A DNA stretch of 64,000 nucleotides. It comes from Gonatopus flavifemur (Eukaryota > Arthropoda > Insecta > Hymenoptera > Dryinidae). Shown here piece after piece: positions 8,781 to 63,930 of this stretch. Every line of letters starts with the position of its first letter. Within the stretch, counting starts at the first letter, position 1. The DNA lies in the NCBI GenBank assembly GCA_018340375.1, contig JAFFJZ010000009.1, positions 11,858,501 through 11,922,500 on the forward strand, in the 5' to 3' direction. A model generated the notes under the pieces. It was not told the origin of the DNA and searched no databases. It saw nothing but the letters and a program-made list of their open reading frames with translations. A program made the position numbers and the translations under genes.

Positions 8781-10580
8781 GCTACAAAAAACTTCCAGCG
8801 ACAAAGTTGTTCACTAGTATATCGACAAACTTTGTGGAAAGTTTCAGATCGATTGGACTCTTCAACAGAAAGTTTCCCATATTAACCCCTACAAGGATGG
8901 ATGGGGAAATCCTACACGATGAATGTTGAATGGGTTTATATGGGAATTTCCATTTCAATTCATCGCAGTCTTCTATATGGATGTCTGAATGGGTTTCAGT
9001 AGGAAAATGAATTATATGGGCAGGCATAGGTTGTTTCTGGAATATAGGGAATGAATAAGTGCTTTTGGGAAGTAGTCGATTGAAATTACTGTTTGTTCCC
9101 AGCGAATGGTTCATAGATAGCGTTAGGAAATTTCCCATTTGGTCCAACGAGAATGAATCGGAAAATTTCACGAGATCAGTGTTGAATGAGTTTGTATAAG
9201 GAATTTCCATTTGAATCTGTCGCAGCCTTCCACAGTGATTTTGAATAAGTTTCAATGAGGAAGTTCTGACATCAAATTATATGGGCAGGAATATGTTATT
9301 TCTACAATGCAGGTAATGAATAAGTTCGTTCTAAAAATATCCAATTGGAATTATTTTTGGTTTCCAATGAATGTGTAATGGGAGGCAGTGAGAAGTTTCC
9401 CATATCCCCGGTTGAAAGAATTCGTTTATTTTCGCCAAGTCTCACTAAATCACATTCAATCTTGGAGGATCTTCCCATCAAATCTCATACGGCAGTTTCT
9501 CAATGAGATTTGCTCAGAAGAATGAATTCTTTCAATGTGACTCTGGTTGAATCTCGGACAATGTTCTGGCCAAATCTCATGAAATTTCATTTGTCTGATT
9601 CGATGGATTCATATGGATTCTTTTAACCAGGGTTTGGTTCCTATCAGAGTCAATGGGAAATTTCTACAAGATACACATTGAATGAGTTCGTATGGGAAAT
9701 TTCCATTCGAATCAATCGCACCCCTCCACATGAATTCCGAATAGATTTCAATGGGAAATTTCTGAAATCAAAGAGTAGGCAGAAATGTTTTGTTCCTAGA
9801 ATATAAGTAATGAACGAGTTTTTGCGAGGATAATGCATTGGGTTTTTTGTTTATTGTAAATAAATGTGTAATCGGAATTTGTCCACCTCTATCCCTCACA
9901 GAACAGGTCACATTCAAACCTATTCAATTCATCAATTGGATCAAATCAGATTTTTGTCCTCGGAATTTCAAATTTGATCTTATTCAATGTGCTTCTTCTA
10001 GGTTTTTCTCACTTCGTCTCATAGGAATAGGGAAATAGGGAATGTGGGAAACTTCCTATTGACATCTCATTGGATATCCATTAAGGACAAATTAGCACCC
10101 TTATTGATTATTACCTAAACGAACTCGTTTATTACGTACATTACCGAAAAAACCTATCCCTGCTCATGAAATTTGGTTTCAGAATATTCTCCATTGAAAC
10201 CTATTCAGAATTCATGTGGGAGAATACGTTGGGTTTGAATGGAAATTTCCTATACAAACTCATTCAACGCTTATGTTGTGAAATTTTCCGGATTTATTCT
10301 TATAGGAGCCGATATGGGAAACTTCGACTGGCCACTCAATCAACATTCTGTGAAAACGAGCAGTAATCCCAGTTGCGTATTTCCCAAAGGAACTCATCCA
10401 TTACTTGAAGATTAGGAACATCCTATCCCTGCCCATGGAATTCGGTTTCAGAAATTTCTCATTCAAACCCATTCGGAATTATTGTGAGAGGCTGCAGCAG
10501 ATTTGTATGAGAATTCCCCATTCAATCCTATTGAAAATCATCTCGTGAAATTCTCCCATTCATTCTTATAGGAGCTATAT
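8781..10580. repeat. imperfect direct and inverted repeats with GGGAAATTTC words
   Basis: Blocks containing ATGGGAAATTTCCATTCGAA, a cytosine-rich CGCAG/CACCCCTCCACATGAATT block and a TTCAATGGGAAATTTC block recur at about 8880-9000, 9140-9260 and 9640-9780. They reappear in the opposite sense at about 10166-10330 and 10430-10570. The minus-strand frame at 8782-9255 only reflects this repetition, since the same peptide-like pattern recurs in it. The copies are diverged, so this is an old repeat cluster or the arms of a decayed foldback. Confidence 0.45.
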
Positions 10581-42219: not shown

Positions 42220-42360
42220 TCCCAGGCAGAAGGCCAACATCAATTTTATATGAAATTGATATCTAGCCGATCAATATTACGTGAACAAAATTTGGTCAGC
42301 TATTTCAAGATCGACACTCTTTTTCAACCTATTTTCGATATCTTTTGAAAGCACACTATA

Positions 42361-44392
42361 CAGGGTGGGGCATTTAAAGTGTCGCGGGCGTTTTTTCCAA
42401 AAATAAAATGAGATACGAGAAAATTTTTCGGACAAAAATTGTAGGGTATCGAGGGGGACATCCGATGGTGGCCTTGGCTTTGACCTCAAATCTCATCTTC
42501 AAGGGCATTCTGAGGTCAACTCTTGTTTTTTAAATAGCATCTCATATTTTTTACTGCAGATTTGGATTCTAGGTCAAAAACCAAGAAACTTTTGTCTGAA
42601 CCATTTTCCTGAAATCCGCAAAGATGGCGCTCTAATCGATATTGTTCCATACTGAATCTGACATTAGAATAACTCGAAAACGAAGGGTCTTGGAGGAGAA
42701 TGTTTCGGACAAAAGTTGTCTGATTCCAAGGGGGACCCCTTGAACTGAAACGGAGGTGATGGGGTATAACAGACAAAACACAACACATTTCAATCGTCTA
42801 CATCACTTGGATAATTTTAATGCAGTAGATGCTCAAAATGATGGCCTTCGACTTCAATACACATTTCAAAACGTTTTACAAAAGATTGCTGAACTCGTGC
42901 TAAAATATCTTCATTGATGCTCGCGCATGCATTGATGATTCGTTGACGCATATTCTCAGGTGTAGTCGGTGCTTGTTGATAAACTGTATCTTTTATGTAT
43001 CCCCATAAAAAAAAATCTGGAGAAGTAAGATCCGGAGAACGGGCAGGCCAATGAACTGGTCCACGACGTCCTATCCATCGTCCAGGATAATCTCTGTCCA
43101 ATATTTCTCGAGCTGTGACTGCATAATGGGATGGACAACCATCGTGTTGATACCACATATTCAATCGTTCCTGAATAGGTATGTCTTCAAGTAATGTTGG
43201 AAGTACTTGATCTAAGAAATGTCTGTACTTCTCTCCATTTAGCGTATCTGCAATGAAGTACGGTCCAATTACTCGAGATCGAAAAATACCACACCAAACA
43301 TTCACAGCCCATTGTCTTTGATGCTCTACTTGACGTAACCATCTTGGATTTTCTGTCGCCCAGTAATGCATATTATGTCGATTTACTTGACCATGATTGG
43401 TGAACGTCGACTCATCAGAAAATAATATGTTGATGAAGTTGTTATTGTGCATTTGCGCTAGACCCCATCGACAAAACTGTACACGATTTTCGAAATCATC
43501 ACCGTGAAGGTCTTGATGCAAACAAATGTGATACGGATGGAATTTGTGACGTTTCAGTATTCGAAGAACACTTCTTCGAGAAATTCCCGAATGGAGTTCA
43601 ATTTCACGAGAGCTCACGTGTGGATTATTGGCTACTGCAGCTAGTACATTAACTTCCTTATTTTCTCCGCTAACAGTTCTCATTCGATGTCGTTTTTCCC
43701 TTGTAACACTTCCCGTTTCTGAAAATAATTTTGTAATGCGTTGAAAATACCTAATGGATGGCGTTGTTCTTTCAGGAAATCGTTCTGCATACAAGTCATA
43801 TGCTTGTCTGGGGTTCTTATGCACTTCACCGTAAATGTAGATCATATCGATCTTTTCAGAAACCGTCTATCGGATATCCATGATTTTCAATTTGTCATAA
43901 ACCAAGTAATAATCAAATGTAACTGACAAACTGACTTTCAAAATCGTGAATTTTCACTGAACCCCGTCGTTTGTTTACATCGCGTGAGCTCTGAATGGTG
44001 GTAATGTAGACGATTGAAATGTGTTGTGTATTGACAACTTTTGTACGAAACATTCTTTTGCAAGACCCTTCGTTTTCGAGTTATTCAAATGTCAGATTCA
44101 AAATGGAACAATATCGATTAGAGCGCCATTTTTGCGGATTTTAGGAAAATGGTTCAGACAAAAGTTTCTTGGTTTTTGACCTAGAATCCAAATCTGCAGT
44201 AAAAAATATGAGATGCTATTTAAAAAATAAGAGTCGATCTCAGAATGCCCTTGAAGATGAGATTTGAAGTCAAAGCCAAGGCCACCATCGGATGTCCCCC
44301 TCGGTACCCTACAACTTTTGTCCGAAAAATTTTCTCGTATCTCACTTTATTTTTGGAAAAAACGCCCGCGACACTTCAAATGCCCCACCCTG
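42361..44392 (-). mobile_element. DD41D transposon, copy A
   Basis: The ends are CAGGGTGGGGCATTTAAAGT and its near-perfect complement, within inverted repeats that continue for about 350 bases (GCCCTTGAAGATGAGATTTG, CTAGAATCCAAATCTGCAGT). TATA flanks both ends (42357-42360 and 44393-44396). Length is 2032 bp. The transposase carries one early nonsense codon. Copy B (56035-58043) is nearly identical in reverse orientation but lacks 23 bases in one terminal repeat. Confidence 0.93.
42817..43881 (-). pseudogene. DD41D transposase, nonsense at codon 5
   Basis: Starting at the same ATG as the intact copy, the frame reads MDIR, then TAG where copy B has TAC, then continues open to the end. From the next Met (43845), 342 codons remain, which would lack only the first dozen residues. 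All catalytic motifs are kept: LFSDESTF, YQHDGCPSHYA, SPDLTSPDFFLWGYIKD. The two copies differ by few residues (VQF against SQF; FTNHG against FINHG). Whether a re-start could yield protein is unknown, so it is called a pseudogene with reservation. Confidence 0.75.
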
Positions 44393-44396
44393 TATA

Positions 44397-46430
44397 TGAC
44401 AGAAACTCTTTCATAAACACAGTTTGAGAACATTTTTATCGGAAAAAAATTTCGAAGGTGATTTAATATACAATATCAATATGATGTCAAAGTGACATCC
44501 AGTCGGTATCATTTCTTATTTTTCCTTGCTACATGTAAACAACCATACTGTATTTATCCAACAGTGTTTTCTTATTGTGTACTACTTGTAGCGCTCTCTG
44601 AGTTGTATATCTCATAATGATCTTCGATACAATATTCATGACATTCATGAAGATCATTCGGAAAGAATAAAAACTCAGAATCGACTCACACAGCACCCAA
44701 TGTCTGACACTGAGGAAAAAGATTCGTTGATTCAAATAAGTTTTGTTTATAGTAAATAATTCGTATAGTTGAATACGGCCAAAGAAAAATTTAATCATAT
44801 CTAGTCAACGCCATAGTTGATAAATACAGCACATGTTTCTTTGAGTCAACTCCATACCGATGATGATTCGATAAATCTAAGTTTAAGTAGAAGTCATATT
44901 CATTCAAATCAATTTCGATCAGTTTGAACCGAATAAATGATTTGGTTTTAATTGATAAATATAAATTTCTTCACTCAACACAATGTTTGGTGATAATGAA
45001 TAAGTTTTATTTGTATGAAGCGATATCTCTCAAAAATGTTCAATCAAATGCGTTGATTTATCAGAAGAAAATCTTTTTCTCAGGGCAGTCATATTTCTAG
45101 AATATTACAGTGTCACTCAGAACATTCTGTGTGGAATATTTATATACAAGATTCTATAGATATTGCAGATACAATATGTCGTTAAAAATGTTCTGAGTAT
45201 TTCCCAAATGAAAAATTGCACATAAAATGTTCTGTAATGTTTTGGAAATCAACGATGGGAATTATGCTGAACTTGTCGCAAATAAAATATTCTGAACAGG
45301 GATGGATTCAATGCGGACGGGGTCAATAGGGTCAGAGGCTGCAGGACCTCCTCGTTTTTTCCATTTTCCTCTTGGAAATTGTTTTTCTGTACGTTCAACA
45401 ACCCATGACCTTGTCGGCCCTGATTCTGAGAATATGACAGTAGCCATATTTTATATAGCAAAATGAAACTTCATACACTTGATCTAGGACTTAGTAAGAT
45501 GTACAAGTCAAGATCGGAAACAATCCCCCTCTCATGACCTATTCACTTTTCGTTTCAGACCATTTTGAATTGATTAGTTTATATCCCACAGAGAAAAATT
45601 TTTGAAATTCTTTCATCAATTTACTCCAGCACATGATAAGTTTTCAAAGGGCATTTTTTCAGGAAACGAATTTTTATGCCACGGAAATCTGCCCTTATAA
45701 GAAAGCTCCTTATATTCTCCTTATTATTCTTCATAACAAAGCTACTGAAATTCATCGTTGATAGAGATCAAGATGAGCTCGAAATAGTGACCACTGTACG
45801 ATAGAATCGATCTTGATTCCGATCTTGATTGTTTCGATGTTCCCATATTGATATCAAATTTTTCTTGATTCAAGTGAAATTTTCCAGGCTCAAGAAAAAA
45901 ACCAGAGGGCTCCACCCCCTGACTGTTTCGCTGAGCAGTCCGACCCCCTTCAAAATTCGCTCCGCTCATTTTTAACAAATCGTGGCCTACCTATGCTCAC
46001 TTATCTCGCATCTTCAACAATTTAGATATCCAGGGATATATGAGAAGGCAATCATCGGTTTTTCGCTCGACTGAACATATTTTTGATGTAACATTCAGAA
46101 AACCTACAACTAATTGCACACCATTTCTTATATCATGTTCAAATGATTTGGGAACATGTTTCTCAACAACTGCAGAATTCGGACAACTGTCCTAGTGAAA
46201 ATGAAGCGTGGAAGAGCGACGAGAGCGTGAATTGAGTGTCAATTGAGCGTAACGAAGAGTCATCTGGGTGTGATTTGAGAAGAAATTTGTTTCAATGACT
46301 ATTTTCTTCACTTTAGGATTCTTACTGGAGTGGAGTTGTCATACTGCTAACCAGCTTTTGAAGAGTGTTCGGATACAAGAAAGCGTACAAGGGGAGATTG
46401 AAACTATCATTTTCCCTGAAAATTTGATCC
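44397..46430. other. no firm gene; one weak exon candidate
   Basis: Mostly AT-rich sequence. On the minus strand an acceptor-like ATATTCTCAG (about 45426-45435) precedes an open, GC-richer frame reading TRSWVVERTEKQFPRGKWKK then RGGPAASDPIDPVRIES, ending near 45262. No donor is convincing and an alternative frame is also open, so it is noted only as a possible exon. Near 46190-46270 lies a partial relative of the CCCTGGTGAAAAT element. Confidence 0.25.
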
Positions 46431-48219: not shown

Positions 48220-49140
48220 GTTTTACTTTTCAAATTGAAGAGTACTCTTCATGTTGAAATTTTCAAATTTGAGGACAAAGCCTAATTTTCTGAGTTGAAT
48301 CCGTTGTTAGGGTGATGATAAACTTGTAGGAAGAGTTTGAAAGTTGGGTGGAATCTATATTGATCAGGAAAGTCAATATCGTGTGGCAAAAGTTAGAAAA
48401 TCTGTCAACTTAGCTTACGGCAGATGGGTATTCTATCAGCTTTTCTTCACTGAATGAAATCTAGGCAGGAGAAATGTATCAAAATTTAGTAAAGTAAAAG
48501 TTGGTACAGAGTAAGAGAGGACAGATATATTCATTGAATTTTATTGGTTATTATAAAAATTTTGATAAATGAGTAAAGACTATGTATAGCTCAATTTATC
48601 GTCTCTCAATATTTTTGGTCAATGATTTTGTATTGTGTGCATTTTTGTATCTTTTCACTAGTAGGTTGAGGAAACATGTGTATGGAACCTGTTCCATAAA
48701 TATAATAAGATTCATTCGTAGGAACATGATACAACATTATTGGAACAAAAATATTAAAAAACGACATATTGGATCTTCTATAGCCTTTCCTTATTTATCA
48801 ACATTTTTATAATAACCAATAAAATTCAATGAATATATCTGTCCTCTCTTACTCTGTACCAACTTGATTTCACTCAATTTTGATACATTTCTCCTGCCTA
48901 GATTTCGTTTAGTGAAGAAAAGCTGATAGAATACCCATGTTGAGTTGACAGATTTTTTAACTTTTGCCACACGATTTGGACTTTCCTGATCAATATAGAT
49001 TCCACCCAACTTTCAAACTCTCCCTACAAGTTTATCATCACCCTAACAACAAATTCAACTCAGAACCCAAGGCTTTTTTCTCAAATTTGAAAATTTCAAC
49101 TTCAAGAATACTCTTCAATTTGAAATTTTCTCATGTTTAG
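48220..49140. repeat. foldback with ~340-bp arms
   Basis: TTTTCAAATTGAAGAGTACT on the left pairs with its near complement at about 49105-49125. Further paired blocks include GTGATGATAAACTTGTAGG / CCTACAAGTTTATCATCAC, ATCTATATTGATCAGGAAAG and ATATATTCATTGAATTTTAT. The spacer (about 48570-48800) is unique. Arms are about 90 percent alike by eye. No transposase is present. Confidence 0.75.
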
Positions 49141-50417: not shown

Positions 50418-51500
50418 AAACTTTGGCAAAAGTTTAATGATTAAAAAATTCTCATTTCAAAAGTTTCATAAACGTTCCATGGAAACCTAAATAAGACTAC
50501 AGCGTACGTTCTTGGTATATACATGCGATGTTTTCTGAACGTCCCGAAACATTTTTAGAACATTCCAATGTTTCAGAAGACGTTCCAAGGATGTTGATAG
50601 TACCTCCCGGTGCTGTATAGGATGCAATCGTTTTCAATTAAAATTCACGATATGCTGGCTTGATCGTTACAAAACGATATAGATTCTTCCTTTCATGTTT
50701 CCTTGATGGAAGCATCTGAATAATAATGCAGAAGTAGATATTTTCTCGGTTCCCATTCCACAATAATATCCCCCCCGATAGCACAGAGTTTGTGAAGAAT
50801 TCTTCAAGAACATCATTTGAACCCTAGAGTTCTAAAAAAGTTCTTCAAGAATTCATCGACGGACTATCGGTGCTATCTGGGTCATCTGGTAATAACTTTT
50901 CATCAAATTGAGAATAAGGAGTCATTATTTTCCTGGTATACAGAAAATTTGATGGAAATTCATTGTATGACCGTGAAAGCACAAACATTGCAATCATATT
51001 GAAATAATATTAAAGATTATTATTTCGTGAATTGGGTTATGATTTATAAGATAGTGACATGATATGGCGCATGTATTTGATCCGTCAATAATAAGTAGAT
51101 CAATAACATATAACATTGCAACATCTCAGATGTTATAATACATTATATTTTATTCATTGGAATAAAAGGCAATGCAACGTCGACGCAACATTGATATGTG
51201 TCTAATAAGTATTTGGAATTCAAGGTGCCGTACGGAATTGATAATCATCAAACACTCTCAAACAGTTTCAATACTATCCTCTCAGAATCTGAATTCAAAA
51301 CTTGAATACGTCCATATGTTACATGACAATTGACAATTTTATCGTAAAAATAAAAAATAAAATATTATTTCCGGTTGATAGAATCAGAATGATTCATCTA
51401 CAACGCGCATGCGCATTATGTTTCTTTCAACGATCACATCATTTCGTTAATCGATATTACTTGAACGAATCGATATTCTTCTCATCTCTACATGCGAGTT
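50418..51500. other. no gene seen
   Basis: AT-rich. At about 50595-50630 the words TACCTCCCGGTGCTGTATAG match, in reverse complement, a block at 58915-58935 (CATACAGCACCGGGAGGT), both beside CGTTC/GAACGT-rich sequence, so a diverged repeat family is present at both places. No exon is supported. Confidence 0.3.
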
Positions 51501-51507
51501 ACCAGAT

Positions 51508-51963
51508 GTAGAAGTACGAGACCGGAATTTTTTTGTGAAACTCACACTTTTGCTGTTTGAAAATGATAAAAAATATTTCATTCAAAATAATCTCCATTGC
51601 TGTTTCTACATTTTTCCCAACTTTCTGGCATTTTATTAATGCCCAGCCAAAAAAACAGTCCCTTTTTTGGAGCGAACCAGTCCATCCTACATTTTCATAT
51701 GAATTGAAGTGTTGCTCAGCAAGGGCGTGTCCCATTAACATGAATAGATAATCGAAGGGAGCCAAGTCTGGAGGATAAGCCGCATGCGGTAGCATCTCCC
51801 AACTGAATCCCTCGATCGTTTCCCGGGTCCGGTTTCCTTTGTAACATGAGGCATTATCGTGGAGCGAGAAGACTTTGTGTTGCCTTTTCCCGTATTTCAC
51901 TCGTTTTTCACGCAATGCGCGATTCAAATCGATCATTTGCTGTTGGTAGCGATCAGTGCTGAC
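51508..51963 (-). pseudogene. mariner transposase, C-terminal half (host of the insertion)
   Basis: The frame reads TDRYQQQMIDLNRALREKR, then the second catalytic motif SLHDNASCY and, 34 residues after its Asp, PPDLAPFDYLF, so it is D,D34D mariner. It continues ALAEQHFNSYENVGW and ends at a terminal-repeat-like TACGAGACCGGAATTTTTTT (from 51513). The 5' part of the same gene is not upstream but 10.1 kb away at 62067-62353. The junction falls within a Val-Asn/Ser-Thr codon triplet that is present on both sides. Frames beyond the DYLF motif show further damage. Confidence 0.85.
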
Positions 51964-52210
51964 TAGGGTGGTACGAAAAAATTCACTCTGATATTTCCGA
52001 GTCACTATAGTGCGGAAAAGTTGCAAATGGTGGATACATGAAAAACAGAAAAAAATTATGAAGATCGGATAATATCTTCCGATCCCGCAAAGCGTCCAAA
52101 GATTCGAAAAAATGATGAATTTCATAATTTTTTAAAATTTGCCACCCGTTTTGATTTCCAACGCTATAGTTCAGAAACATTGGAATTGCTAGTGCTGAAC
52201 GAGAAGAAAG

Positions 52211-52727
52211 GATATTGCTATAAGTAGAAAATATTTCTCAATCGCGTCGAATCTCCTCGAATCAATAAAAAACCGTTTTCCGGTGTTTTTGGCAAATTCG
52301 AAAGCAGATTAGGTTTGGTCAGCAATTGGTCCAAAGTCACAAATATGTGGCTCCTCGCTTGTTTAGAAATATCTAAACGACCCAGAACTCACCACAAAAA
52401 GGTGGTTACACTTCGAGTTTTTCCACACCCTTCCCTTCATCCAACTATCAAGGGTGTGTACAATTTACATATATATATTTTCTCTTCTCATTTTAGAACT
52501 TATTAACGCTATCATTATCATTTTTCAATCATTTTTCTAAAATTTGCCCGGTGGAACTAACTTATAATCAGACTCCTTCGTGAGATTAGGTATTATAGAT
52601 TATAGATCTAGATTCCAATGTTGTTCTGATAAATCCATCCCTCGATTCAAACCCGCATCTCTGAGCGAAGCTTCCGTCACCAATTCCACACACCGCTCGA
52701 CGGCTTGCGTATGGTAGGGAAATTCTC
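52211..52727. other. subterminal part of the hAT-like element, no gene
   Basis: This lies between the terminal repeat and the 3' end of the minus-strand gene remnant. It would be the 3' untranslated part. A short AT-rich tract is present; no other feature is seen. Confidence 0.3.
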
Positions 52728-53960
52728 TTATTCTCCAGTTCGGATGTTACCTGAATTTATAACAGGATGAATTTCATCATCTGTAACTCTTCGAAGGAGA
52801 GGTGGGGATGATAATTTTGTCAGGTTCCAATCCATCATTCCTGAATAATCTAAGGCATTGAAATTCAAAGTAGGAGTGACAAAGTTTCTGATATTCTCAC
52901 CTCTCGAAACACGCTGCCTGGCTTCCAACACTTTCCTCAATCCTAACTCTCTTACATTTCTCCTCTCATCGAAGATCATAGCCAACAATGAATTTTCAGG
53001 GTGGGCGGAAAACGAGTTTCGTTCGATTACAGAGAACACTACTTTTTTCAGATCATCTGACAAGTATCGAGATGTTTCAATTGCTCTGTCTACATGAATA
53101 GGTCCTTCTGTAATGTACTTACTACATTTCATTTCAAACCAGACAGGCATGTAAGATTTCAAAATGAATGTCACGATATTTTTTGAAGCTCCTGAGCGAT
53201 TTTTCACACTTACATATAGTCGAAGGACTCTATCAGCACAAGTGGGCCACCTGGCGTGTGAGATCGGGCTGGGGTCACGATTTAATAACTCATTTGGAAC
53301 GTTGCCATTTTTAACTGCTTGACTTATGTCAAGAAGATATCTTTGGTCTTCGCTCAACAGTTTTCTGTCCACTAGTGGGATGTCACAATCAATTGGATTG
53401 GTTGAAAATCTACTATTGGGAGTTTCTTACAACTCTTGAGACTTTTCAAAATTGGTCCACTAAATGATTTTGGGCCAATTGTTTCCCCATCCAAATATTG
53501 AAAGAGATGACGGGAAGGTAACTCAATAAAATGAAGTAACTAAACAGCCCATTGTAATGGTGGTCCAAGATACAATTCAAGTTGTCTACACGGAGAGAAA
53601 TTTGTAGTTAAATTTACTATGTTATTATTGTTCCCGAGGAACAGACTGAATTCTGTCGGATTTTACTATGAAGGGCATATTTTTACTATGGTACAACAAT
53701 AGAATGCTGATCATATTTACTATGTTTTATTGGGGAACCCGTAATAGTTCAGTCTGTTCCTCGGGAACAATAATAACATTGTAAATTTAACTATAAATTT
53801 CTCTCCGTGTAATAACACCAATTTTCCACTCAGTATTAGTATTTGTACCATCACAGCCAACGATCTCTAAATATTCTGGTGAAATGCCATTTCCAGTAAG
53901 GGATCATAAAATGATAGATGCAATGTCTTCAGCAGACCGGGATTTGGGGACAAGTAACAT
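52728..53960 (-). pseudogene. C-terminal two thirds of arthropod GCDGT-family protein (candidate hAT-like transposase)
   Basis: From 53960 leftward the minus strand reads ISPEYLEIVGCDGTNTNTEW, is cut by a MITE (53589-53809), then resumes LGPPLQWAV, a stop at the Cys position of the family's CLLH motif, ELPSRHLFQYLDGETIGPKS and SLKSCKKLPIVDFQPI. A frameshift leads into the long open part (52728-53372: LSEDQRYLLDISQAVKNGNV, HARWPTCADRVLRLYV, VIERNSFSAHPENSLLAMIF). This protein family is common in arthropod genomes and unnamed. An Asp in GCDGT followed by C-x2-H and an RH motif is reminiscent of hAT transposases. That link is inference, supported by the hAT-type ends around it. Confidence 0.7.
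53589..53809. mobile_element. MITE, CACGGAGAGAAAT ends, TA duplication
   Basis: CACGGAGAGAAATTTGTAGT at the left pairs with the right end (ACTATAAATTTCTCTCCGTG). A second paired block, CCCGAGGAACAGACTGAA / TTCAGTCTGTTCCTCGGG, lies inside. TA is at 53587-53588 and 53810-53811. Deleting the 221 bp and one TA rejoins the surrounding protein frame without a shift. Same family as 61417-61691. Confidence 0.85.
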
Positions 53961-54042
53961 AAATAAACATAACCAAGATCTTATATGATAGAATAATGTT
54001 CCTCTTCCACTGTTCGGCGAAACTGTTTTGATTCAATGCTTC

Positions 54043-55668
54043 CTAAGTGTGTATTGACGGCGGGCCCCAGCTACGCCCAGGGTGGGTGCCCATGCTACCC
54101 AACGTGGGGCCAACCCTGGGATGATAACATCGTTCCCAGCTTGGCCGTATTGCTTTGCCCGAGAATTGGTAACACCACGGGCCCAGCATGAACCCAGACC
54201 ACGCAATCAATACTGCCCCTTCCTTTTTGTTTTGAAATTGGAAAATCCCTAGCATGTACATACCATGGGGCCCATCCCAGGCCAGCATGGGCCCCATCCT
54301 GCCAATATGGGCCCAAGACTGGGCCAGAGTGGGACTAAAATTCTTACACGCTGAGGATTGTACACACATGCCCGGGATATGAATTCATCCCAATCTTGGC
54401 CTCACGCTGGTCCAAATTGGGGCCAAGTTTAAATGTGCCCGCACAGAGATTCATTATCTCCATTTTTTTTCAACTATAATTGCATGGAAAAGCACAACAG
54501 GGCCAAGATTGAGCCAACATGGGCCCCATCGTCATTCCCCAATACTGGGTTGAAGAGGATGGACCCAGCCTGGGGCCCATTGTCTTTATAGGCAATACAC
54601 GCTTGGGTTTCTATAACTGAGGTATCATCTTCTCTTCCGTCAAAATAAATACCACGTAGCTCATTTAAATCCTGTTGACTTTTGTTTTGTAAATCACTTC
54701 TATTGCGGCTCTTTTCTTTTTAACTTTATATCAACAACTTTCGAAGTATCTGTTTCAGTTACTACCCAAGTGTGTATTGACGGCGGGCCCCATCTACGCC
54801 CAGGGTGGGTGCCCATGCTACCCAACGTGAGGCCAACCCTGGGATGATAACATCGTTCCCAGCTTGGCCGTATTGCTTTGCCCGAGAATTGGTAACACCA
54901 CGGGTCCAGCGTGAACCCAGACCAGGCAATCAATACTACCCCTTCCTTTTGTCTTGAAATTGGAAATTCCCGAGCATGTATACAACTTTCGAAGTATCTG
55001 TTTCAGTTACTACCCAAGTGTGTATTGACGGCGGGCCCCATCTACGCCCAGGGTGGGTGCCCATGCTACCCAACGTGAGGCCAACCCTGGGATGATAACA
55101 TCGTTCCCAGCTTGGCCGTATTGCTTTGCCCGAGAATTGGTAACACCACGGGTCCAGCGTGAACCCAGACCAGGCAATCAATACTACCCCTTCCTTTTTG
55201 TCTTGAAATTGGAAAATCCCTAGCATGTATACAACTTTCGAAGTATCTGTTTCAGTTACTACCCAAGTGTGTATTGACGGCGGGCCCCATCTACGCCCAG
55301 GGTGGGTGCCCATGCTACCCAACGTGAGGCCAACCCTGGGATGATAACATCGTTCCCAGCTTGGCCGTATTGCTTTGCCCGAGAATTGGTAACACCACGG
55401 GCCCAGCGTGAACCCAGACCAGGCAATCAATACTACCCCTTCCTTTTTGTCTTGAAATTGGAAGATCCCTAGCATGTATATAGCATGGAGCCCACCCCGG
55501 GCCAGCATGGGCCCCATCCTGCCAATATGGGCCCAAGACTGGGCCGGAGTGGGACCAAAATTCTTACACGCTGAGGATTGTACACACATGCTCGGGATAT
55601 AAATTCACCCCAATCTTGGCCTCACGCTGGTCCAAATTGGGGCCAAGTTCAAATGTGCTCGCACTCAG
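54043..55668. repeat. GC-rich repeat, four copies, two in exact tandem
   Basis: Units start TGTGTATTGACGGCGGGCCC at 54048, 54771, 55019 and 55268. The first and last run about 400 bases to CAAATGTGC-CGCAC. The two middle ones are cut at 248-249 bases and joined in tandem. Each middle unit ends with about 35 bases of the host gene (ACAACTTTCGAAGTATCTGT) that also stand before the 54771 copy, so amplification happened after insertion. GGGCCC/GGGCCA words pair across the unit. Open frames on the minus strand here are translated repeat. Confidence 0.75.
54600..54757 (-). pseudogene. fragment of the GCDGT-family protein, middle region
   Basis: Between two copies of the GC-rich repeat the minus strand reads SRNRSDLQNKSQQDLNELRG then IYFDGREDDTSVIETQ. 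The YFDGR-(K/E)-D-D-T word precedes the GCDGT region in this family, as it does here. A second frame (VVTETDTSKVVDIKLKRKEP) overlaps, so at least one shift lies upstream. It belongs to the same gene as 52728-53960, separated by the repeat at 54043. Confidence 0.55.
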
Positions 55669-55674
55669 AAGCTG

Positions 55675-56030
55675 AAAAAAAAACACTGGAGGGTTAAATG
55701 TCGTTTTACACAGAAAGCAATACGAGTGTTTCATAAAACTCATTTTTTATCGATTAGAGCGCTATCTGTGCGGAATTCAGAAAAATGGTTCAGACAAAAG
55801 TTTCTTGTTTTTCAACGTCAAATCTGAATCTGCAGTCAAAAATAGGGGATTTCATTCAAGAAACACAAGTTGACCTCTGAATGACCTCGAAGTTGAGATC
55901 CGAGGCCAAAGTCAAGGTCACCATCATATGTCCCCCTCAGAATCTCGAAACTTTTGTCCGAAACATTTTCCTCCAAAACTCCTTGTTTTTGAGTTATTCC
56001 GATATAAAAATTAAAATGGGACACCTTGTA
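55675..56030. mobile_element. solo terminal arm related to the 25.3-28.9 kb element
   Basis: From AGAAGCTGAAAAAAAAACAC to AAAATGGGACACCTTGTA it matches about 28567-28929 in the same orientation (AAAGCAATACGAGT, GTTCAGACAAAAGTTTCTTG, TTGAGTTATTCCGATATAAA). It abuts copy B of the DD41D transposon, sharing its flanking TATA. One terminal base pair differs (CACCTTG against CACCCTG). No partner arm is nearby. Confidence 0.75.
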
Positions 56031-56034
56031 TATA

Positions 56035-58043
56035 CAGGGTGGGGCATTTGAAGTGTCGCGGGCGTTTTTTCCAAAAATAAAGTGAGATACGAGAAAATTT
56101 TTCGGACAAAAGTTGTGGGGTACCGAGGCTTTGCCCTCAAATCTCATCTTCAAGGGCATTCTGAGATCAACTCTTGTTTTTTAAATAGCATCTCATATTT
56201 TTTACTGCAGATTTGGATTCTAGGTCAAAAACCAAGAAACTTTTGTCTGAACCATTTTCCTGAAATCCGCAAAAATGGCGCTCTAATCGATATTGTTCCA
56301 TTTTGAATCTGACATTCGAATAACTCGAAAACGAAGGGTCTTGCAAAAGAATGTTTCGTACAAAAGTTGTCAATACACAACACATTTCAATCGTCTACAT
56401 TACCACCATTCAGAGCTCACGCGATGTAAACAAACGACGGGGTTCAGTGAAAATTCACGATTTTGAAAGTCAGTTGGTCAGTTACATTTGATTATTACTT
56501 GGTTTATGACAAATTGAAAATCATGGATATCCGATACACGGTTTCTGAAAAGATCGATATGATCTACATTTACGGTGAAGTGCATAAGAACCCCAGACAA
56601 GCATATGACTTGTATGCAGAACGATTTCCTGAAAGAACAACGCCATCCATTAGGTATTTTCAACGCATTACAAAATTATTCTCAGAAACGGGAAGTGTTA
56701 CAAGGGAAAAACGACATCGAATGAGAACTGTTAGCGGAGAAAATAAGGAAGTTAATGTACTAGCTGCAGTAGCCAATAATCCACACGTGAGCTCTCGTGA
56801 AATTGAACTCCATTCAGGAATTTCTCGAAGAAGTGTTCTTCGAATACTGAAACGTCACAAATTCCATCCGTATCACATTTGTTTGCATCAAGACCTTCAC
56901 GGTGATGATTTCGAAAATCGTTCACAGTTTTGTCGATGGGGTCTAGCGCAAATGCACAATAACAACTTCATCAACATATTATTTTCTGATGAGTCGACGT
57001 TCATCAATCATGGTCAAGTAAATCGACATAATATGCATTACTGGGCGACAGAAAATCCAAGATGGTTACGTCAAGTAGAGCATCAAAGACAATGGGCTGT
57101 GAATGTTTGGTGTGGTATTTTTCGATCTCGAGTAATTGGACCGTACTTCATTGCAGATACGCTAAATGGAGAGAAGTACAGACATTTCTTAGATCAAGTA
57201 CTTCCAACATTACTTGAAGACATACCTATTCAGGAACGATTGAATATGTGGTATCAACACGATGGTTGTCCATCCCATTATGCAGTCACAGCTCGAGAAA
57301 TATTGGACAGAGATTATCCTGGACGATGGATAGGACGTCGTGGACCAGTTCATTGGCCTGCCCGTTCTCCGGATCTTACTTCTCCAGATTTTTTTTTATG
57401 GGGATACATAAAAGATACAGTTTATCAACAAGCACCGACTACACCTGAGAATATGCGTCAACGAATCATCAATGCATGCGCGAGCATCAATGAAGATATT
57501 TTAGCACGAGTTCAGCAATCTTTTGTAAAACGTTTTGAAATGTGTATTGAAGTCGAAGGCCATCATTTTGAGCATCTACTGCATTAAAATTATCCAAGTG
57601 ATGTAGACGATTGAAATGTGTTGTGTTTTGTCTGTTATACCCCATCACCTCCGTTTCAGTTCAAGGGGTCCCCCTTGGAATCAGACAACTTTTGTCCGAA
57701 ACATTCTCCTCCAAGACCCTTCGTTTTCGAGTTATTCTAATGTCAGATTCAGTATGGAACAATATCGATTAGAGCGCCATCTTTGCGGATTTCAGGAAAA
57801 TGGTTCAGACAAAAGTTTCTTGGTTTTTGACCTAGAATCCAAATCTGCAGTAAAAAATATGAGATGCTATTTAAAAAACAAGAGTTGACCTCAGAATGCC
57901 CTTGAAGATGAGATTTGAGGTCAAAGCCAAGGCCACCATCGGATGTCCCCCTCGATACCCTACAATTTTTGTCCGAAAAATTTTCTCGTATCTCATTTTA
58001 TTTTTGGAAAAAACGCCCGCGACACTTTAAATGCCCCACCCTG
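56035..58043 (+). mobile_element. DD41D transposon, copy B, intact transposase
   Basis: CAGGGTGGGGCATTTGAAGT at the left and CAGGGTGGGGCATTTAAAGT (right complement) sit within inverted repeats of about 350 bases. TATA lies at 56031-56034 and 58044-58047. The 2009-bp unit lacks 23 bases near 56127 that copy A keeps in the equivalent arm; apart from this and scattered substitutions the two copies agree. It is nested in the hAT-like element, next to the solo arm. Confidence 0.95.
56523..57587 (+). CDS. DD41D Tc1/mariner-superfamily transposase
   Basis: Start chosen at MDIRYTVSEKIDMIYIYGEV (354 residues) over an upstream Met 20 codons earlier, because this one matches copy A and the domain start. 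Residues 10-60 form a DUF4817-type helix-turn-helix (NPRQAYDLYAERFPERTTPS). HVSSREIELHSGISRRSVLR follows. Catalytic residues are D156 (LFSDESTF), D247 (YQHDGCPSHYA) and D289 (LTSPDFFLWGYIKD), with 41 residues between the last two. D,D41D is the signature reported for rosa-like elements; a closer family name needs a tree. No defects are seen, so it may be active. Confidence 0.93.
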   Translation: MDIRYTVSEKIDMIYIYGEVHKNPRQAYDLYAERFPERTTPSIRYFQRITKLFSETGSVTREKRHRMRTVSGENKEVNVLAAVANNPHVSSREIELHSGISRRSVLRILKRHKFHPYHICLHQDLHGDDFENRSQFCRWGLAQMHNNNFINILFSDESTFINHGQVNRHNMHYWATENPRWLRQVEHQRQWAVNVWCGIFRSRVIGPYFIADTLNGEKYRHFLDQVLPTLLEDIPIQERLNMWYQHDGCPSHYAVTAREILDRDYPGRWIGRRGPVHWPARSPDLTSPDFFLWGYIKDTVYQQAPTTPENMRQRIINACASINEDILARVQQSFVKRFEMCIEVEGHHFEHLLH

Positions 58044-58047
58044 TATA

Positions 58048-58566
58048 TGTGTAAATAGATGTATGAATGAATTTACGTGTGTATATTTGTATATTAGTAT
58101 ACGTATATATACATATATGTATATATATACAAGCTTTCATAATTCTTCGATTTGAAATGTTCCTGTCATGACATTTTTTAAATAAATTGATATGAGATCG
58201 ATGATTTATATTCATTCATCAGGAATTCATTTTTATATCAACAGCGTTGCTCAAATCTGTTGATGGGTCACATTTCTAGTCCTCAATTTCGGTCAAACCA
58301 AATTTCTAACGGAATCAACCCACCAAAAATTCACGTTGAATAGAATAACCAATGACGCACAGAATTTCCAGCCGATAGACACCCTGAAAAATACGAATGT
58401 TACCATCCGAGCATGCTTTCTTTCTACCAAAATACTCTAATTTGAATTCATAGGAAAATCCATACTTCAGACCGTTCGGATAACCACACACTTTTTTCGG
58501 TAGAGTGTCTCAGTCCCGAAGGTCAATCTTCCCGAAAGTCCGATACACCGAAATGCAAAATCCTGT
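58048..58566. other. no gene; TA-rich microsatellite at 58.09-58.13 kb
   Basis: A TATATAC/GTATATA-rich run follows the DD41D element. The rest is unassigned interior of the hAT-like element. Confidence 0.4.
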
Positions 58567-58881
58567 CCCAGCCAGCAAAGTGCTTCCAAATTCACGTCTC
58601 CGCTACTAGCAGTGCTAGTGGGAGCAACGTAGTAGCTTTTTCATTACCGTGAGACTGCATGTTACCATAACATATATATGATTCAATTTATAACGTAGCA
58701 CTACCTCAGCGCTACCAGTATTATCATGAAGCGCTACCAAGTAGTGCTCCTAGTAAAAATATGACCAAGTTGCTCCTATTTCCATACATAAATGAAGCCA
58801 TATATATACAGAAGATTTTTAACTGTATAAGTGAATGGTAGCACCACTGCCAAAAGCGCTGCCTTGATTTTGTTGGCTGGG
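58567..58881. mobile_element. MITE, CCCAGCCARCAAA ends
   Basis: CCCAGCCAGCAAAGTGCTTC at the left and CCCAGCCAACAAAATC (right complement) match over 13 bases bar one. The interior has many GTAGCACTACC / AGTAGTGCTCC / GCGCTACCA words in both senses, giving several small stems. No frame or clear duplication is present. Confidence 0.55.
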
Positions 58882-59105
58882 GTGTGTTGAACATCTACAA
58901 ATCCTGGTATTACCCATACAGCACCGGGAGGTCTTTTCAATGTTCAAAAAACGTGCTTAATTACACAGAGAACGTGGAAATAACGTTTCGGGATGTTCTA
59001 AGAACGTCACATGTATGTCCCAGATTGTATGGCGCAAATGTCCCGGTTTGTTCTATTCATTTGCACCGTGCGACGTTCTGGAAACGTGTTCAATAAAGGT
59101 TTCCA
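58882..59105. other. unassigned, shares block with 50.5-50.6 kb
   Basis: ACAGCACCGGGAGGT and AACGTTTCGGGATGTTCTAA words match a reverse-complement block near 50540-50625. It encodes nothing recognised. Confidence 0.3.
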
Positions 59106-59358
59106 CACTGAGAAAAAAATTTATTCCAGTCAAATAAATATTTATTTGTCCTGTACCAAAGAAATATTTATTAGAATTGACAAAATATTCTTTGGAACCA
59201 AAATAATTCATTGGAATCAAATAAACGATTAAAACCATCTATTTAATTCAAATAAATTATTTTGGTTCCAAAGAATATTTTGTTAATTCTAATGAATATT
59301 TCTTTGCTACGGGACAAATCAATATTTATTTGACTAGAATAAATTTTTTTTTCAGTGC
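59106..59358. mobile_element. palindromic MITE, CACTGAGAAAAAAA ends
   Basis: CACTGAGAAAAAAATTTATT pairs with the right end AATAAATTTTTTTTTCAGTG. The arms run almost to the centre (AATATTTATTTGTCC / GGACAAATCAATATT; AATATTCTTTGGAACCAAAA / TTTTGGTTCCAAAGAATATT), with a loop of only about 30 bases. CA flanks both sides. The short ORFs in it are mirror images. Confidence 0.75.
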
Positions 59359-60620
59359 ATTACGTTGTGCGAAGCTGCGCATATGTTTTTGAAGGTTAGT
59401 TTTCATGAAAGTATGTTGGGAAAACATGAGAACGGCCCGTAGTAGATGAAAAGAACGAGTTAAGAACGTATTCAGGGGCATCCAAAATGCAAATACTCTA
59501 AATATTTAAAAAACTTACTCCTCGGGGACCAAAACACGCAAAACCAAGTGCATGTTTTCAAAACGTTGAGAGAACTTTCTGTGCTTTCTGGGTAGTGAAA
59601 CCAACGATGCCTAGTTGGCTTGGAACACCCCAAATCTTATTTTCAGAAATCCATTGTTTTCATAGGTATTGAACACACGGTGGAAGCTGCAATGTTGCGA
59701 CAAAATTTCAGTACCTTAAAATATAATAGTTAGATGGCTAGCAACATCTAGGAATATTTCAGTATATCGAACTTTCGGGAAAATGGACCTTCGGAACTGC
59801 GACACTCTACCATTTTTTTCAATGTACGAAGCACTTGCAAGTGTCTAGTTTTAGGCTAGTCAAGCGTTACAAAACTCTCGAATCCCTAGATCATTTCAAC
59901 TTGGAAATATTTGAAAAAGTAATATTTCTGATCCCTGTTACACTTGTACTTGTTGAATTGATTTACCGATGAAAATTTCATGCTTTCGACAATTACGCAA
60001 CGTTTGCTAGCTCCGCAAAAAGAAATAGACGCAATTATTGGTATTAGAAGTATGAATGATGTAAATACTCATTGTTAGATGTAGATTTTCGATAATGAGA
60101 TTTGTTTTCTGAAATGGAATCTGACTTATAAATGAAACTGAAACTGGCACCCGTAAAGCTAGCAGCCGATTATCATAACTTTTTCCACAAAACTTTCATC
60201 AAAGATTCAAATATCTGAGACATTTAGTAGAATGCCACTCAATTGATTTTTGGTGTGAACACAGCTGGAACCACATTGAATCAAAAGTTACAACAATTAG
60301 CTACTAGCTTCAGGTTGCTGGTTTTAGCTTAATGATTCATAACCTCCATTCGTATTATTCACAAATTTGAATGAGTTTGAATTGTAAATGGAACTATGAG
60401 TTACCCTTCAACTGATGAATCAAATTGTTTTTCTCCAATTTTATTCATATTTTATCAAATTTTCTCCATGAATAATGAAGAAAACAGGTATAAAATGGAA
60501 TTATTCCGGCCCCGATGGGAGCCCTGTTGATACCCAATTAGGTTGTAATGATTTTTGCGTCACATTCACCATTTAATACTTGTTAAGCCCCGATTATTAT
60601 GATGGCATTACTGATGGAAT
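59359..60620. other. no gene seen
   Basis: AT-rich interior of the hAT-like element between two remnants of its gene. Parts of the missing central coding sequence might hide here, but no frame can be supported. Confidence 0.3.
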
Positions 60621-60622
60621 TT

Positions 60623-60835
60623 CTACACGGGGTCATGTGCCACGGACTTTTTAACAACTGAAAAACTCACTCTTGTGTTGGTAAGCTTACTGGCTGATTT
60701 GAATCTCTCTTCAAAACAACATCGAAGCACGTCCTCGTATGTTGCGAGATTATGTGGCAGAAAATCCTTCATATGGCCAAATATAGGACACACAAAGGAC
60801 TGTCTCATCAGTTTCTTGGACATAGTTGTATCCAT
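60623..60835 (-). pseudogene. probable N-terminal fragment of the GCDGT-family protein
   Basis: A 70-codon minus-strand frame reads MDTTMSKKLMRQSFVCPIFG, HMKDFLPHNLATYEDVLRCC and FEERFKSASKLTNTRVSFSV, then KKSVAHDPV. The LxTYEDVLRCC word is typical of the N-terminal region of the same arthropod family as 52728-53960. It lies upstream in the right order and strand. The frame ends soon after, so the gene is broken or spliced. Assignment is from recalled family character, not an alignment. Confidence 0.4.
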
Positions 60836-60978
60836 ATACTGATCCGATATCGATTTTCCTAACGTAAAGATTATATCAGCACAATATACTGAACACTATG
60901 TTGAAAAGTGCCATGAACGGTACACCACTACACAACACAATGGACTGCACTCTATACAGTTTACTTACTTTGATTTGC

Positions 60979-61364
60979 ACGGAAAAAAAGGTAGTTGCAG
61001 CAACTACTTAAATAGTCGATTTTCGACCATCTACTTCAGTAGTTGCTGTAGCTACTTAGTAGTCAGGACAAGTAACACGTTACCTGTCTCGACTAATTCA
61101 AAATACCTCAAGCATTTACGTTAGTTAGTGCAACTATCGAGTCACTTGTCCTGACTACTAAGTAGCTGCAGCAACTACTTAGTAGTCAGGACAAGTAACA
61201 CGTTACCTGTCTCGACTAATTCAAAATACCTCAAGCATTTACGTTAGTTAGTGCAACTATCGAGTCACTTGTCCTGACTACTAAGTAGCTGCAGCAACTA
61301 CTTAAGTAGATGGTCGAAAATCGACTATTCAAGTAGTTGCTGCAACTATTTCTTCTTTCCCGTG
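60979..61364. mobile_element. palindromic element with internal 123-bp duplication
   Basis: The ends CACGGAAAAAAAGGTAGTTG and CAACTATTTCTTCTTTCCCGTG pair, followed by GTAGTTGCTGCAGCTACT-type stems. A 123-bp block starting AGTCAGGACAAGTAACACGT occurs at 61061 and again, identically by eye, at 61184. Each copy is itself palindromic (AGTCAGGACAAGT / ACTTGTCCTGACT). TA follows the right end, and TG precedes the left. Confidence 0.7.
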
Positions 61365-61416
61365 TACTCACTTTGTACTGTTGCTAGTCCAATTGAGAAT
61401 AACAACTTGATAACTA

Positions 61417-61691
61417 CACGGAGAAAATTTTGTAGTATACATTGCATAAAAAATGTGTTCAATATTACTATGTTTTTGTAAAGTTGGACCATAATATGAT
61501 AATGATTTAAATTACGATAGATTATAGTAAAATTGGAAACAAAACAAAGAAAGGTTACAATGTCTCAATCGTAAAAAGGGATGCATGCGAAGCATTTCTG
61601 AATAAACGTTCAGTGATTTCAGTCAGAGTGTCAGTATAGTCCAGCGTTACAAAATAATTGTAGTAATCTATACTACAAAATTCTCTCCGTG
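61417..61691. mobile_element. MITE, CACGGAGAAAATT ends, TA duplication
   Basis: CACGGAGAAAATTTTGTAGT and the right complement CACGGAGAGAATTTTGTAGT match in 19 of 20 positions and continue into ATA. TA lies at 61415-61416 and 61692-61693. Same terminal family as 53589-53809. There is no frame. Confidence 0.8.
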
Positions 61692-62066
61692 TAACGGCAC
61701 TGTTATATCACGTCCTGCAACGTGACACATGAGAGAACTTCTGCGCTTCTCTTCGTGAATTCCAGGAAATTCGCGTGATTAGAAGATATTTTGTACACAC
61801 AGAAATACTTTGCTTTCTCATTCAGCATTACCAGTTGCAACTTCTTCACACTGTAGCGTTCGAAATAAATATGGGAGACGAATTTCAGAAAATTATCAGA
61901 AAATTGTGGAATTCATCATTTTTTCGAAACTTTGGGTGCTTTGCGGGATCGGAAGATATCATCCGATCGTGATCATTCTTTTTGTTTTTCATTTATTCAC
62001 CAATCGTAACTTTTCCGCACTATAGCGAGTCGGAAATATCAAGTTGGATCTTTTCGCACCACCCCA

Positions 62067-62353
62067 GTGTTGACGGTTTGCCCAGGTTTTGACAGCTCAT
62101 AATAGATTACACCCTTCTGATGCCACCAAACACAGAGCATTGTCTTCTTTTCAAAACGATTTGGTCTTGTAGTGGATTTTGATGATTTACCTGGTTTCAC
62201 CCATGATTTCCGACGCTTAAGATTCTCAAAAGACTTTCTTTTGTATCTGTCGAACAGCATTTCACGAGTGATTTTTCGGTTTTCTTGCTGTCTTTCATTC
62301 ACTTCATGTGGGACCCATTTTCCCACTTTCCGACTCTTTCCCATGGCTTTCAA
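62067..62353 (-). pseudogene. mariner transposase, middle part (host of the insertion)
   Basis: The minus-strand frame reads KWVPHEVNERQQENRKITRE (the WVPHEL linker of mariners), MLFDRYKRKSF, then a deletion that removes the first catalytic VTGDEKW-type motif, RRKSWVKPGKSSKSTTRPNR, MLCVWWHQKGVIYYELSKPG and QTVNT. It then runs into the hAT-like terminus. The next mariner residues (TDRYQQQ) are found at 51963 leftward. The N-terminal region beyond 62353 is missing. Confidence 0.85.
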
Positions 62354-62369
62354 ACGGATGGAGACGTGT

Positions 62370-62910
62370 ATTCCGCAGCGTTATCAGTCCTGGTTCACCA
62401 CTGGCCCAGTCTCGTATTACGAAAGCAGTTGTATTACTACAGAATGAATTTGGTTCCTGATCCCCTACCAATTCAGTATTAGGGCGATTTTACAGCAATA
62501 CTGTTGGAGTATCATGTTCTCATGTATTTTACAATGTAATTAGCGCTGGCTCAGTACTGGTGTAGCTTGGGTCATTCGAAATACAGTTGGTTTGGATTTT
62601 GAATCACGGCCGATTTCGTAGTGAGACAATGTTGTATGAATACTAGCTCGTACAATGTTGCCAACCCTGGTTTGATGCTGGGACAGTGCCGTCTCCTAAA
62701 ACGTGGGTCTTTGCTCAGCGGTGAAGATCGAGTACTGGCGCAAAACTGTTTGTCTATGGCAACCAATACTTTTCGAAATCCGTCCAACAATTGGTGCCAG
62801 TTGAGAAACAGTAATGACCCTGAATAAAAATCGTTGTTTCTGCCGGACTCCGGCAAATACAACCTTGCCAGTACAGCGCCTCTTGACAACTCTGGCAGTT
62901 TCCACATAGG
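62370..62910 (-). mobile_element. fragment of the CCCATGTGG family, right-hand end
   Basis: The edge TTTCCACATAGG (62899-62910) and the words GGCAAATACAACCTTGCCAG and GTTTCTCAACTGG-type sequence match, in reverse, the left subterminal region of the 29838 unit. The remainder has the family's CAGTACTGG / TGCCAG words. The other end is missing where it meets the mariner remnant. Confidence 0.5.
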
Positions 62911-63621
62911 TAGTCTCGTAGTCTCGTGCACCCCAAGTCAATCATGTGCGATTCGTTGTTGGTACAAAAATCAGATGCTAGATGCGATGAATCTCGTCTA
63001 GTATGAAATATTTCTGTCCGAGATACTGTAGCATTTCACAACAGAACATTGACAATACTTTAGTAGTTTAATATCTGAGGGCTAATAATATCTTTTATCA
63101 GGACTCTTCAGATTATTTTTGGTAATCTTGAAGAGGTTTTTCGGAAATTCGAATGCTTTTGAGAATTCTTTGCGAAGGTTATTTCGGTATTGATTGACGA
63201 GCATGAGCAACCGTTTGAAACAATTTGCACGGACTTTGTGTTCCCAAATGCGCAAAAATAGGCTGTAAACCTGCGATTCTACAGTGAGAGAAAAATTGTG
63301 AGGAAGGATAAAAATCAATGCAATAATTATTCCCATATCAACGCGGCAACTCGGAGACAACTTGACAACATTGTTTCCAATGGGAAGTTGGTATGGTGAA
63401 ATATTAAAACCAAATATTGGAAAGATGTCCACATGTAAATAGAATAATTTCAAAACCAGATATTAGTAGACTTTCACATTCTACGAGAGGAAAAATTGAG
63501 GTCCTTGTCGGTGAATAAACATGAATCTACTATGTGAAATGAAATTATTTATAAGGTATTGCGAATTCCCCAGTGAAAAAGGTTCATATATGCGCTGTAT
63601 ATAATTATTGGAGTTTATACA
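62911..63621. other. no gene seen
   Basis: A 123-codon minus-strand frame (63082-63453) is open but has no recognised similarity and no splice context. It is not called. Confidence 0.3.
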
Positions 63622-63895
63622 CCCTAGTAAAAAGGGATTATATATGGTCTGTATATAGTTATTGAAGTTTATATAAGTATTATTAAAATTTATATAGTTA
63701 TATATGGAGTTATATATAAAAACTTGAATTGTTATATATAGTAAAAAATCGGAATAATTCTTTTCATATAGAATTATCTCAAATTCCATATATACCACTA
63801 TACATAACTATATATGTGCATATATTAATTTCAATAATACTTATATAAACTTTAATAATTATATATAGACCATATATAATCCCTTTTCACTAGGG
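63622..63895. mobile_element. AT-rich palindromic MITE, CCCTAGTRAAAAGGG ends
   Basis: CCCTAGTAAAAAGGGATTAT at the left matches the complement of the right end (CCCTAGTGAAAAGGGATTAT) in 19 of 20 positions. The arms continue ATATGGTCTGTATATA / TATATATAGACCATAT and TTTATATAAGTATTATT. The loop centre is about 63730-63790. No frame is real here. Confidence 0.75.
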
Positions 63896-63930
63896 CATGT
63901 ATTATTAGAATTTATATAAGGACATATATA

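Follow-up and report, generated by a model that had tools for sequence, protein, structure and literature searches.

A probable hAT-like insertion in a mariner element of Gonatopus flavifemur and the lineage of its transposase

The ends of hAT transposons start with the motif YARNG, and nTnnnnAn is one of the target types described for them. According to a passage in PMC3942097, their inverted repeats usually measure 10–25 bp. For TcBuster-type hAT elements, an excerpt of PMC10512250 gives the target as nnnTAnnn, and DUF659 and DUF4371 are named as hAT transposases in part of PMC3985635. Galileo, a member of the P superfamily, is described in a section of PMC2775673 with long inverted repeats and the 7-bp duplication GTAGTAC. 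Here, we analyzed a window of 64,000 nucleotides (the whole stretch of DNA under study; contig JAFFJZ010000009.1, positions 11,858,501 to 11,922,500) from Gonatopus flavifemur (Hymenoptera, Dryinidae), in which a 10.1-kb element separates the two halves of a mariner gene. This element is very probably a hAT-like cut-and-paste transposon, which inserted once at the 8-bp mariner site GTCARCAC, died, and was swollen by nested insertions from about 2.8 to 10.1 kb.

Interrupted mariner and paired ends

On the minus strand, one mariner frame reaches the right junction with ...KPGQTVNT and the other starts at the left junction with TDRYQQQMIDL...; the frame is broken at one and the same point on either side of the element, in keeping with the split mariner proposed in an initial annotation of the letters alone. 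The Pfam model Transposase_1 matches the right half at E 2.7e-20 and the left half weakly (0.11). The search for uninterrupted mariner copies, which that annotation had suggested, was run with the two flanks fused over one 8-mer, a query of 320 bases, against the genome (636 Mb, 402 contigs). All 40 scored matches, taken from 1585 candidates in a first look, span the junction at 86–89% identity; 33 of them cover all 320 bases, and the other seven begin by base 8 and end at base 316 or later. Target lengths are 311–324 bases in some matches, hence not all are gap-free. Since these genomic copies cross the rejoined 8-mer junction, the mariner was whole before the insertion.

The inverted ends are confirmed, with window positions 51,962–52,262 matching the reverse complement of 61,759–62,068 at 77.1% identity over 314 columns (E 5.8e-60). 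They had been annotated as about 240 bases of subterminal similarity; the alignment is real, and we reinterpret it as the remnant of inverted repeats that reach 348–474 bp in relatives. The direct repeat with one change also holds, GTGCTGAC and GTGTTGAC agreeing at seven of eight bases (the chance of at least 7/8 at a fixed place is 25/65536).

Other copies with the same two ends were sought at 15 places, namely the window and 14 others, at which left-type and right-type ends are distinguishable. The ends are paired in inverted order at six of these places, each with a 7/8 duplication. Besides the 10.1-kb window copy, the pairs measure 3.2 kb (L017), 2.1 kb (L018), 2.8 kb (L019), 3.8 kb (L022) and 13.8 kb (contig C207), and not the 4–5 kb that had been anticipated. 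One further place (L024) holds a left end plus a shortened right end; at the other eight, the stretch retrieved contains a single end or fragments. A single insertion event as the origin of the two mariner halves and the two ends is therefore supported, because uninterrupted mariner sequences span the junction and the paired ends recur in five other copies, each with an 8-bp duplication of its own. The C207 copy (L020 and L021, C207:2412893-2426685) represents a second swollen member of the family. At L023, an end is split, with bases 2–111 at 9760–9652 and bases 110–177 at 917–850, about 8.7 kb apart, which suggests a further insertion.

Comparison with the other copies separated the core from later insertions (Table 1). 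Six blocks with a total of 2792 bp are common to other copies, and five intervening blocks of 218, 562, 5868, 388 and 275 bp (7311 bp in total) are unshared, four of the five being cleanly absent from four or five other copies; the description as a single swollen element proved correct in this respect. At the place of the 5868-bp block, other copies hold 230–670 bp of their own sequence, and therefore some original sequence was lost here too. No match to residues 72–320 of a related protein was found in the window element by tblastn. The open frame of the transposon nested in this block matches Pfam DUF4817, and a second copy of that transposon, inverted relative to the first and 98.1% identical, lies at 42,352–44,397. 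The tandem array (54,734–55,480) consists of a 249-bp unit repeated three times with 98% matches and is related to 54,039–54,444 and 55,259–55,664. Palindromic elements resembling miniature inverted-repeat transposable elements (MITEs) are marked in the table; two of them have CACGGAGA ends in common, with TA on both sides.

Table 1 Coordinates of the inserted element, its blocks and neighbouring features in the window
Feature	Position	Strand	Evidence or remark
Mariner gene, 3' half	51499..51963	-	Frame, empty-site search
Left target duplication GTGCTGAC	51956..51963		7/8 identical to 62067-62074
Whole inserted element	51964..62066	coding strand -	10,103 bp
Left-type end and inverted repeat	51964..52263	+	Begins TAGGGTGG
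Core block 1	51964..53588	-	C-terminal transposase relic; tblastn residues 496-774 of 779
232-amino-acid stop-to-stop frame in core block 1	52728-53426	-	
Later insertion, 218-bp inverted-repeat element	53589..53806		CACGGAGA ends; MITE-like; absent from L017, L019, L024, L026, C207 copy
Core block 2, transposase relic	53807..54045	-	Shared block, relic match
Later insertion, 562 bp	54046..54607		Absent from L017, L019, L024, L026
Core block 3, transposase relic	54608..54764	-	YFDGR region; shared block, relic match
Later insertions, 5.9 kb	54765..60632		Include most of tandem array and the 56030-58051 transposon
Nested transposon	56030..58051	+	Inverted repeats of ~365 bp; 378-amino-acid open frame
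MITE-like element	59106-59357		Palindromic
Core block 4, N-terminal relic	60633..60976	-	Residues 11-71 at 60817-60635
Later insertion, 388-bp inverted-repeat element	60977..61364		MITE-like; absent from L017, L019, L024, L028
Core block 5	61365..61416	-	Shared with other copies
Later insertion, 275-bp element	61417..61691		CACGGAGA ends; MITE-like; absent from L017, L019, L024, L028, C207 copy
Core block 6 including right end	61692..62066	-	Shared with other copies
Right-type end and inverted repeat	61759..62066	-	TGGGGTGG read inward
Right target duplication GTGTTGAC	62067..62074		8 bp
Mariner gene, 5' half (Transposase_1)	62067..62380	-	Frame, Pfam, empty-site search
MITE-like element	48228-49125		Palindromic
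MITE-like element	63586-63929		Palindromic

Related elements and target preference

On the minus strand of the window, eight pieces with four stops match 514 of the 779 residues of the protein of a related element (L062), and the window copy is no longer able to encode its own enzyme. Elsewhere in the genome, the transposase domain has at least 150 matches (150 scored of 896 candidates), 38 of which carry a frame of at least 750 amino acids that is stop-free within the match. We infer that this protein of 750–800 amino acids is the transposase of the relatives. Of four related elements analyzed over their entire length, two start with TAGGGTGG, namely L062 (3764 bp, 779 amino acids) and L065 (3673 bp, with a broken frame); the other two, L063 (3983 bp) and L064 (3982 bp), each with a protein of 794 amino acids, start with TAGACCG. 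All four are flanked by perfect 8-bp duplications, and their inverted repeats of 348–474 bp are 82–96% identical. L063 and L064 are 97.6% identical, which suggests recent movement. Judging from relatives with long open frames, an element without insertions measures about 3.7–4.1 kb, again smaller than had been assumed.

Two further observations concern individual relatives. Between the 60 bases outside the one duplication of L062 and those outside the other, there is some inverted similarity (local score 32, compared with 10–16 in nine other elements), as would be seen after insertion into a palindromic repeat. The source of a relative from Frankliniella fusca (P0122) labels it 'MAU2 chromatid cohesion factor-like', although by alignment it is a transposase-family protein.

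Target choice was assessed in 29 distinct young elements, with the old copies L035 and L051 excluded and L049 yielding no end. Within the duplication, 28 of the 29 have T at position 2 and 23 have A at position 7, both being present in 23; in the middle, T4 occurs in 16 and A5 in 15, and the eight bases further out are without such bias. The sister family provides a larger sample, as the 18-base end of this TAGACCGG family occurs 197 times without mismatch in the genome. The pattern nTnnnnAn precedes 170 of these 197 exact ends, whereas the frequencies of A and T in the outer flanks would predict about 9%; because both ends of an element lie at one site, the independent sites number closer to half of this count. 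Of the 28 listed pairs of ends separated by 3.7–4.1 kb, 22 are in agreement over the six site bases that can be read from either end; two of these six were already fixed by the search pattern. The preference is less marked in right-hand copies of the window's own family, with A7 in all six and T2 in only three of six.

The remaining six listed pairs disagree at one to three of the six site bases (C1:1154011-1158001, C75:18545-22490, C20:121157-125150, C35:276106-280105, C292:178298 and C292:216160). Recombination between copies is a possible cause; some may also belong to larger duplications, because the C1 and C75 pairs, as well as the two in C292, share the same odd pair.

Predicted fold and alternative readings

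The predicted model of one family protein, P0026, is closest to Hermes (PDB 6dwz, 4d1q, 6dww) once Foldseek candidates are realigned, and this prediction aligns with Hermes across the helical insertion. We infer from the model an RNase H-type catalytic domain that would be split by this insertion between the second D and the E, and propose D337, D411 and E723 as putative catalytic residues. Near the proposed second D lies a CxxH motif (C440 and H443 in 108/108 alignment rows with a residue), and the predicted helical insertion carries RW (R536 and W537 in 111/111); roles of both motifs in hAT are described in a passage of PMC4763223. The N-terminal CxC...CxC (C132, C134, C159, C161) is present in 100/100 rows, and PCHTQAVER sits where the hATC dimerization domain would match. 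Structural comparison with viral proteins gave, as its second and weak match, a bracovirus protein that is uncharacterized (BFVD O92526; E 4.4e-3).

Pfam scans of 31 distinct proteins returned no match to the BED zinc finger, DUF659, DUF4371, P element or THAP domains, or MULE or FLYWCH domains, and none to Dimer_Tnp_hAT (hATC) at E up to 1 or 10. For the transposase family, nothing informative emerged from Pfam, NCBIfam or PADLOC, the best weak Pfam matches being to unrelated families at E 0.0074 and above, and the PDB yielded nothing above chance by sequence. In viral contigs, 62 stretches fit a peptide pattern and none encodes a relative. A homologue search with the A1 profile (E up to 10) produced 323 matches, of which the 120 listed are all of the same family and without Pfam domains; it thus provided no connection to hAT at the sequence level, no direct profile comparison with hAT proteins having been made. 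Within open-licence PMC papers, no description of the family was found, and six conserved peptides match 0 papers; a name may already exist in Repbase or Dfam.

Several of the results weigh against a hAT-like insertion. In Foldseek's own ranking of the P0026 model, ISCth4 comes first (E 1e-4), followed at ranks 2 and 3 by the transposase of the Drosophila P element (E 6.6e-4 and 7.2e-4), and Hermes has no row among the 50 listed, an absence that is not evidence. The likeness to Hermes stems from the realigned candidates, not from this ranking, and the sequence identity with Hermes is 13%. E446 and E621 are conserved as strongly as E723, which was chosen over them because of its position in the fold. 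None of the hAT models of Pfam matches, and the inverted repeats are far longer than those usual in hAT. The initial annotation had taken YARNG to fit on the strength of TAGGG; the left end of the window copy, which reads TAGGG, does fit, the right end (TGGGG) and the sister family (TAGAC) do not. Moreover, all six old duplications carry exactly one mismatch and none is perfect. Divergence from the column majority is 6–9% in five of the paired copies and 21% in the C207 copy, from which about 0.9–1.4 and 3.0 mismatches, respectively, are predicted; the mismatches need only age, because about one is predicted in five copies. The uniformity, one mismatch in six of six, is unlikely taken alone. 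A special meaning was rejected, as age accounts for the mean.

Regarding the alternatives, two ends of unrelated elements enclosing 10 kb as a chance composite would fit with ends that differ at about one quarter of their bases and with the one differing duplication base. However, both end types are paired in six copies with the same core between them, and the mariner halves rejoin exactly at a single 8-mer, which refutes chance or unrelated ends and makes such a composite extremely improbable. The probability of an assembly artefact is judged just as low: a misjoin would not place an 8-bp target duplication and inverted ends within a series of mariner codons, and five further copies show the same end pairing elsewhere. 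Long inverted repeats and 8–10-bp duplications are typical of Mutator-like elements (MULEs), and those of Aedes are described in part of PMC5225508 with repeats above 100 bp and 8–9-bp duplications; the repeats found here measure 348–474 bp. Yet the MULE and FLYWCH models fail to match, Muta1 is characterized in an excerpt as being without target preference in contrast to the strong preference seen here, and the MULE proteins reported have 416–554 amino acids against about 750–800 in this lineage; we consider this assignment very unlikely. Membership in the P superfamily, with its 7–8-bp duplications, draws on the long inverted repeats of Galileo and on the Foldseek ranks given above. The P element and THAP models found no match, and the P element has no row among the 50 listed after realignment, which again is not evidence; on balance, this origin appears unlikely.

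Under the favoured reading of a hAT-like insertion, the transposon would have inserted once at the mariner site, duplicated it and later died; at least five later insertion blocks, made up of transposons and repeats, would then have enlarged the core after some internal loss. The enzyme would excise the element at its long inverted ends and insert it into a palindromic nTnnnnAn site, joining the two strands at points separated by eight bases, with repair leaving the duplication. Cut-out, staggered joining and duplication are the most likely course given the anatomy of the element, and the predicted fold suggests that excision would probably follow a hAT-type route in which the flanking DNA ends up with hairpins.

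Relationship to known transposon families

The label 'hAT-like', already used in the initial annotation, is supported by the sites of the sister family and by the predicted fold closest to Hermes. The lineage behaves like a hAT, keeping the duplication, the target and a predicted fold with CxxH and RW; since it is without short repeats, a detectable BED finger and hATC, we do not file it as a member, and it may be either a divergent hAT branch or a sister lineage. It is a genuine possibility, somewhat short of an even chance, that the proteins of 750–800 amino acids form a major lineage beside hAT, which would be arthropod-wide and recently mobile in this genome, combine the hAT fold and hAT-type targets with long repeats and a different N-terminal metal-binding module, and have been missed by profile libraries.

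The nesting itself is ordinary, and the value of the locus lies in the protein family it exposed, to which automated annotation gives the label 'hypothetical' or a wrong name. If the tentative lineage is real, long inverted repeats and a BED-free N-terminus would have arisen or been retained within the hAT fold, many arthropod proteins listed as 'uncharacterized' would be its transposases, and a sizeable share of unnamed arthropod repeats and genes could be assigned. An enzyme of hAT type whose DNA-recognition end is unusual would be open to study, and the link of long inverted repeats with hAT-type target choice would be directly testable.

Compared with Hermes, to which it is 13% identical, the lineage has no BED match, an invariant CxC...CxC and repeats of 348–474 bp. 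The DUF659 and DUF4371 hAT families resemble it as RNase H-type transposases; the difference is that none of the 31 proteins scanned fits either model. Galileo shares the long inverted repeats and differs in its 7-bp duplication GTAGTAC. TcBuster-type elements, compared by their target description and not by protein, likewise have an 8-bp duplication and a TA-enriched site middle, whereas the dominant signal here is T2 (28/29) and A7 (23/29).

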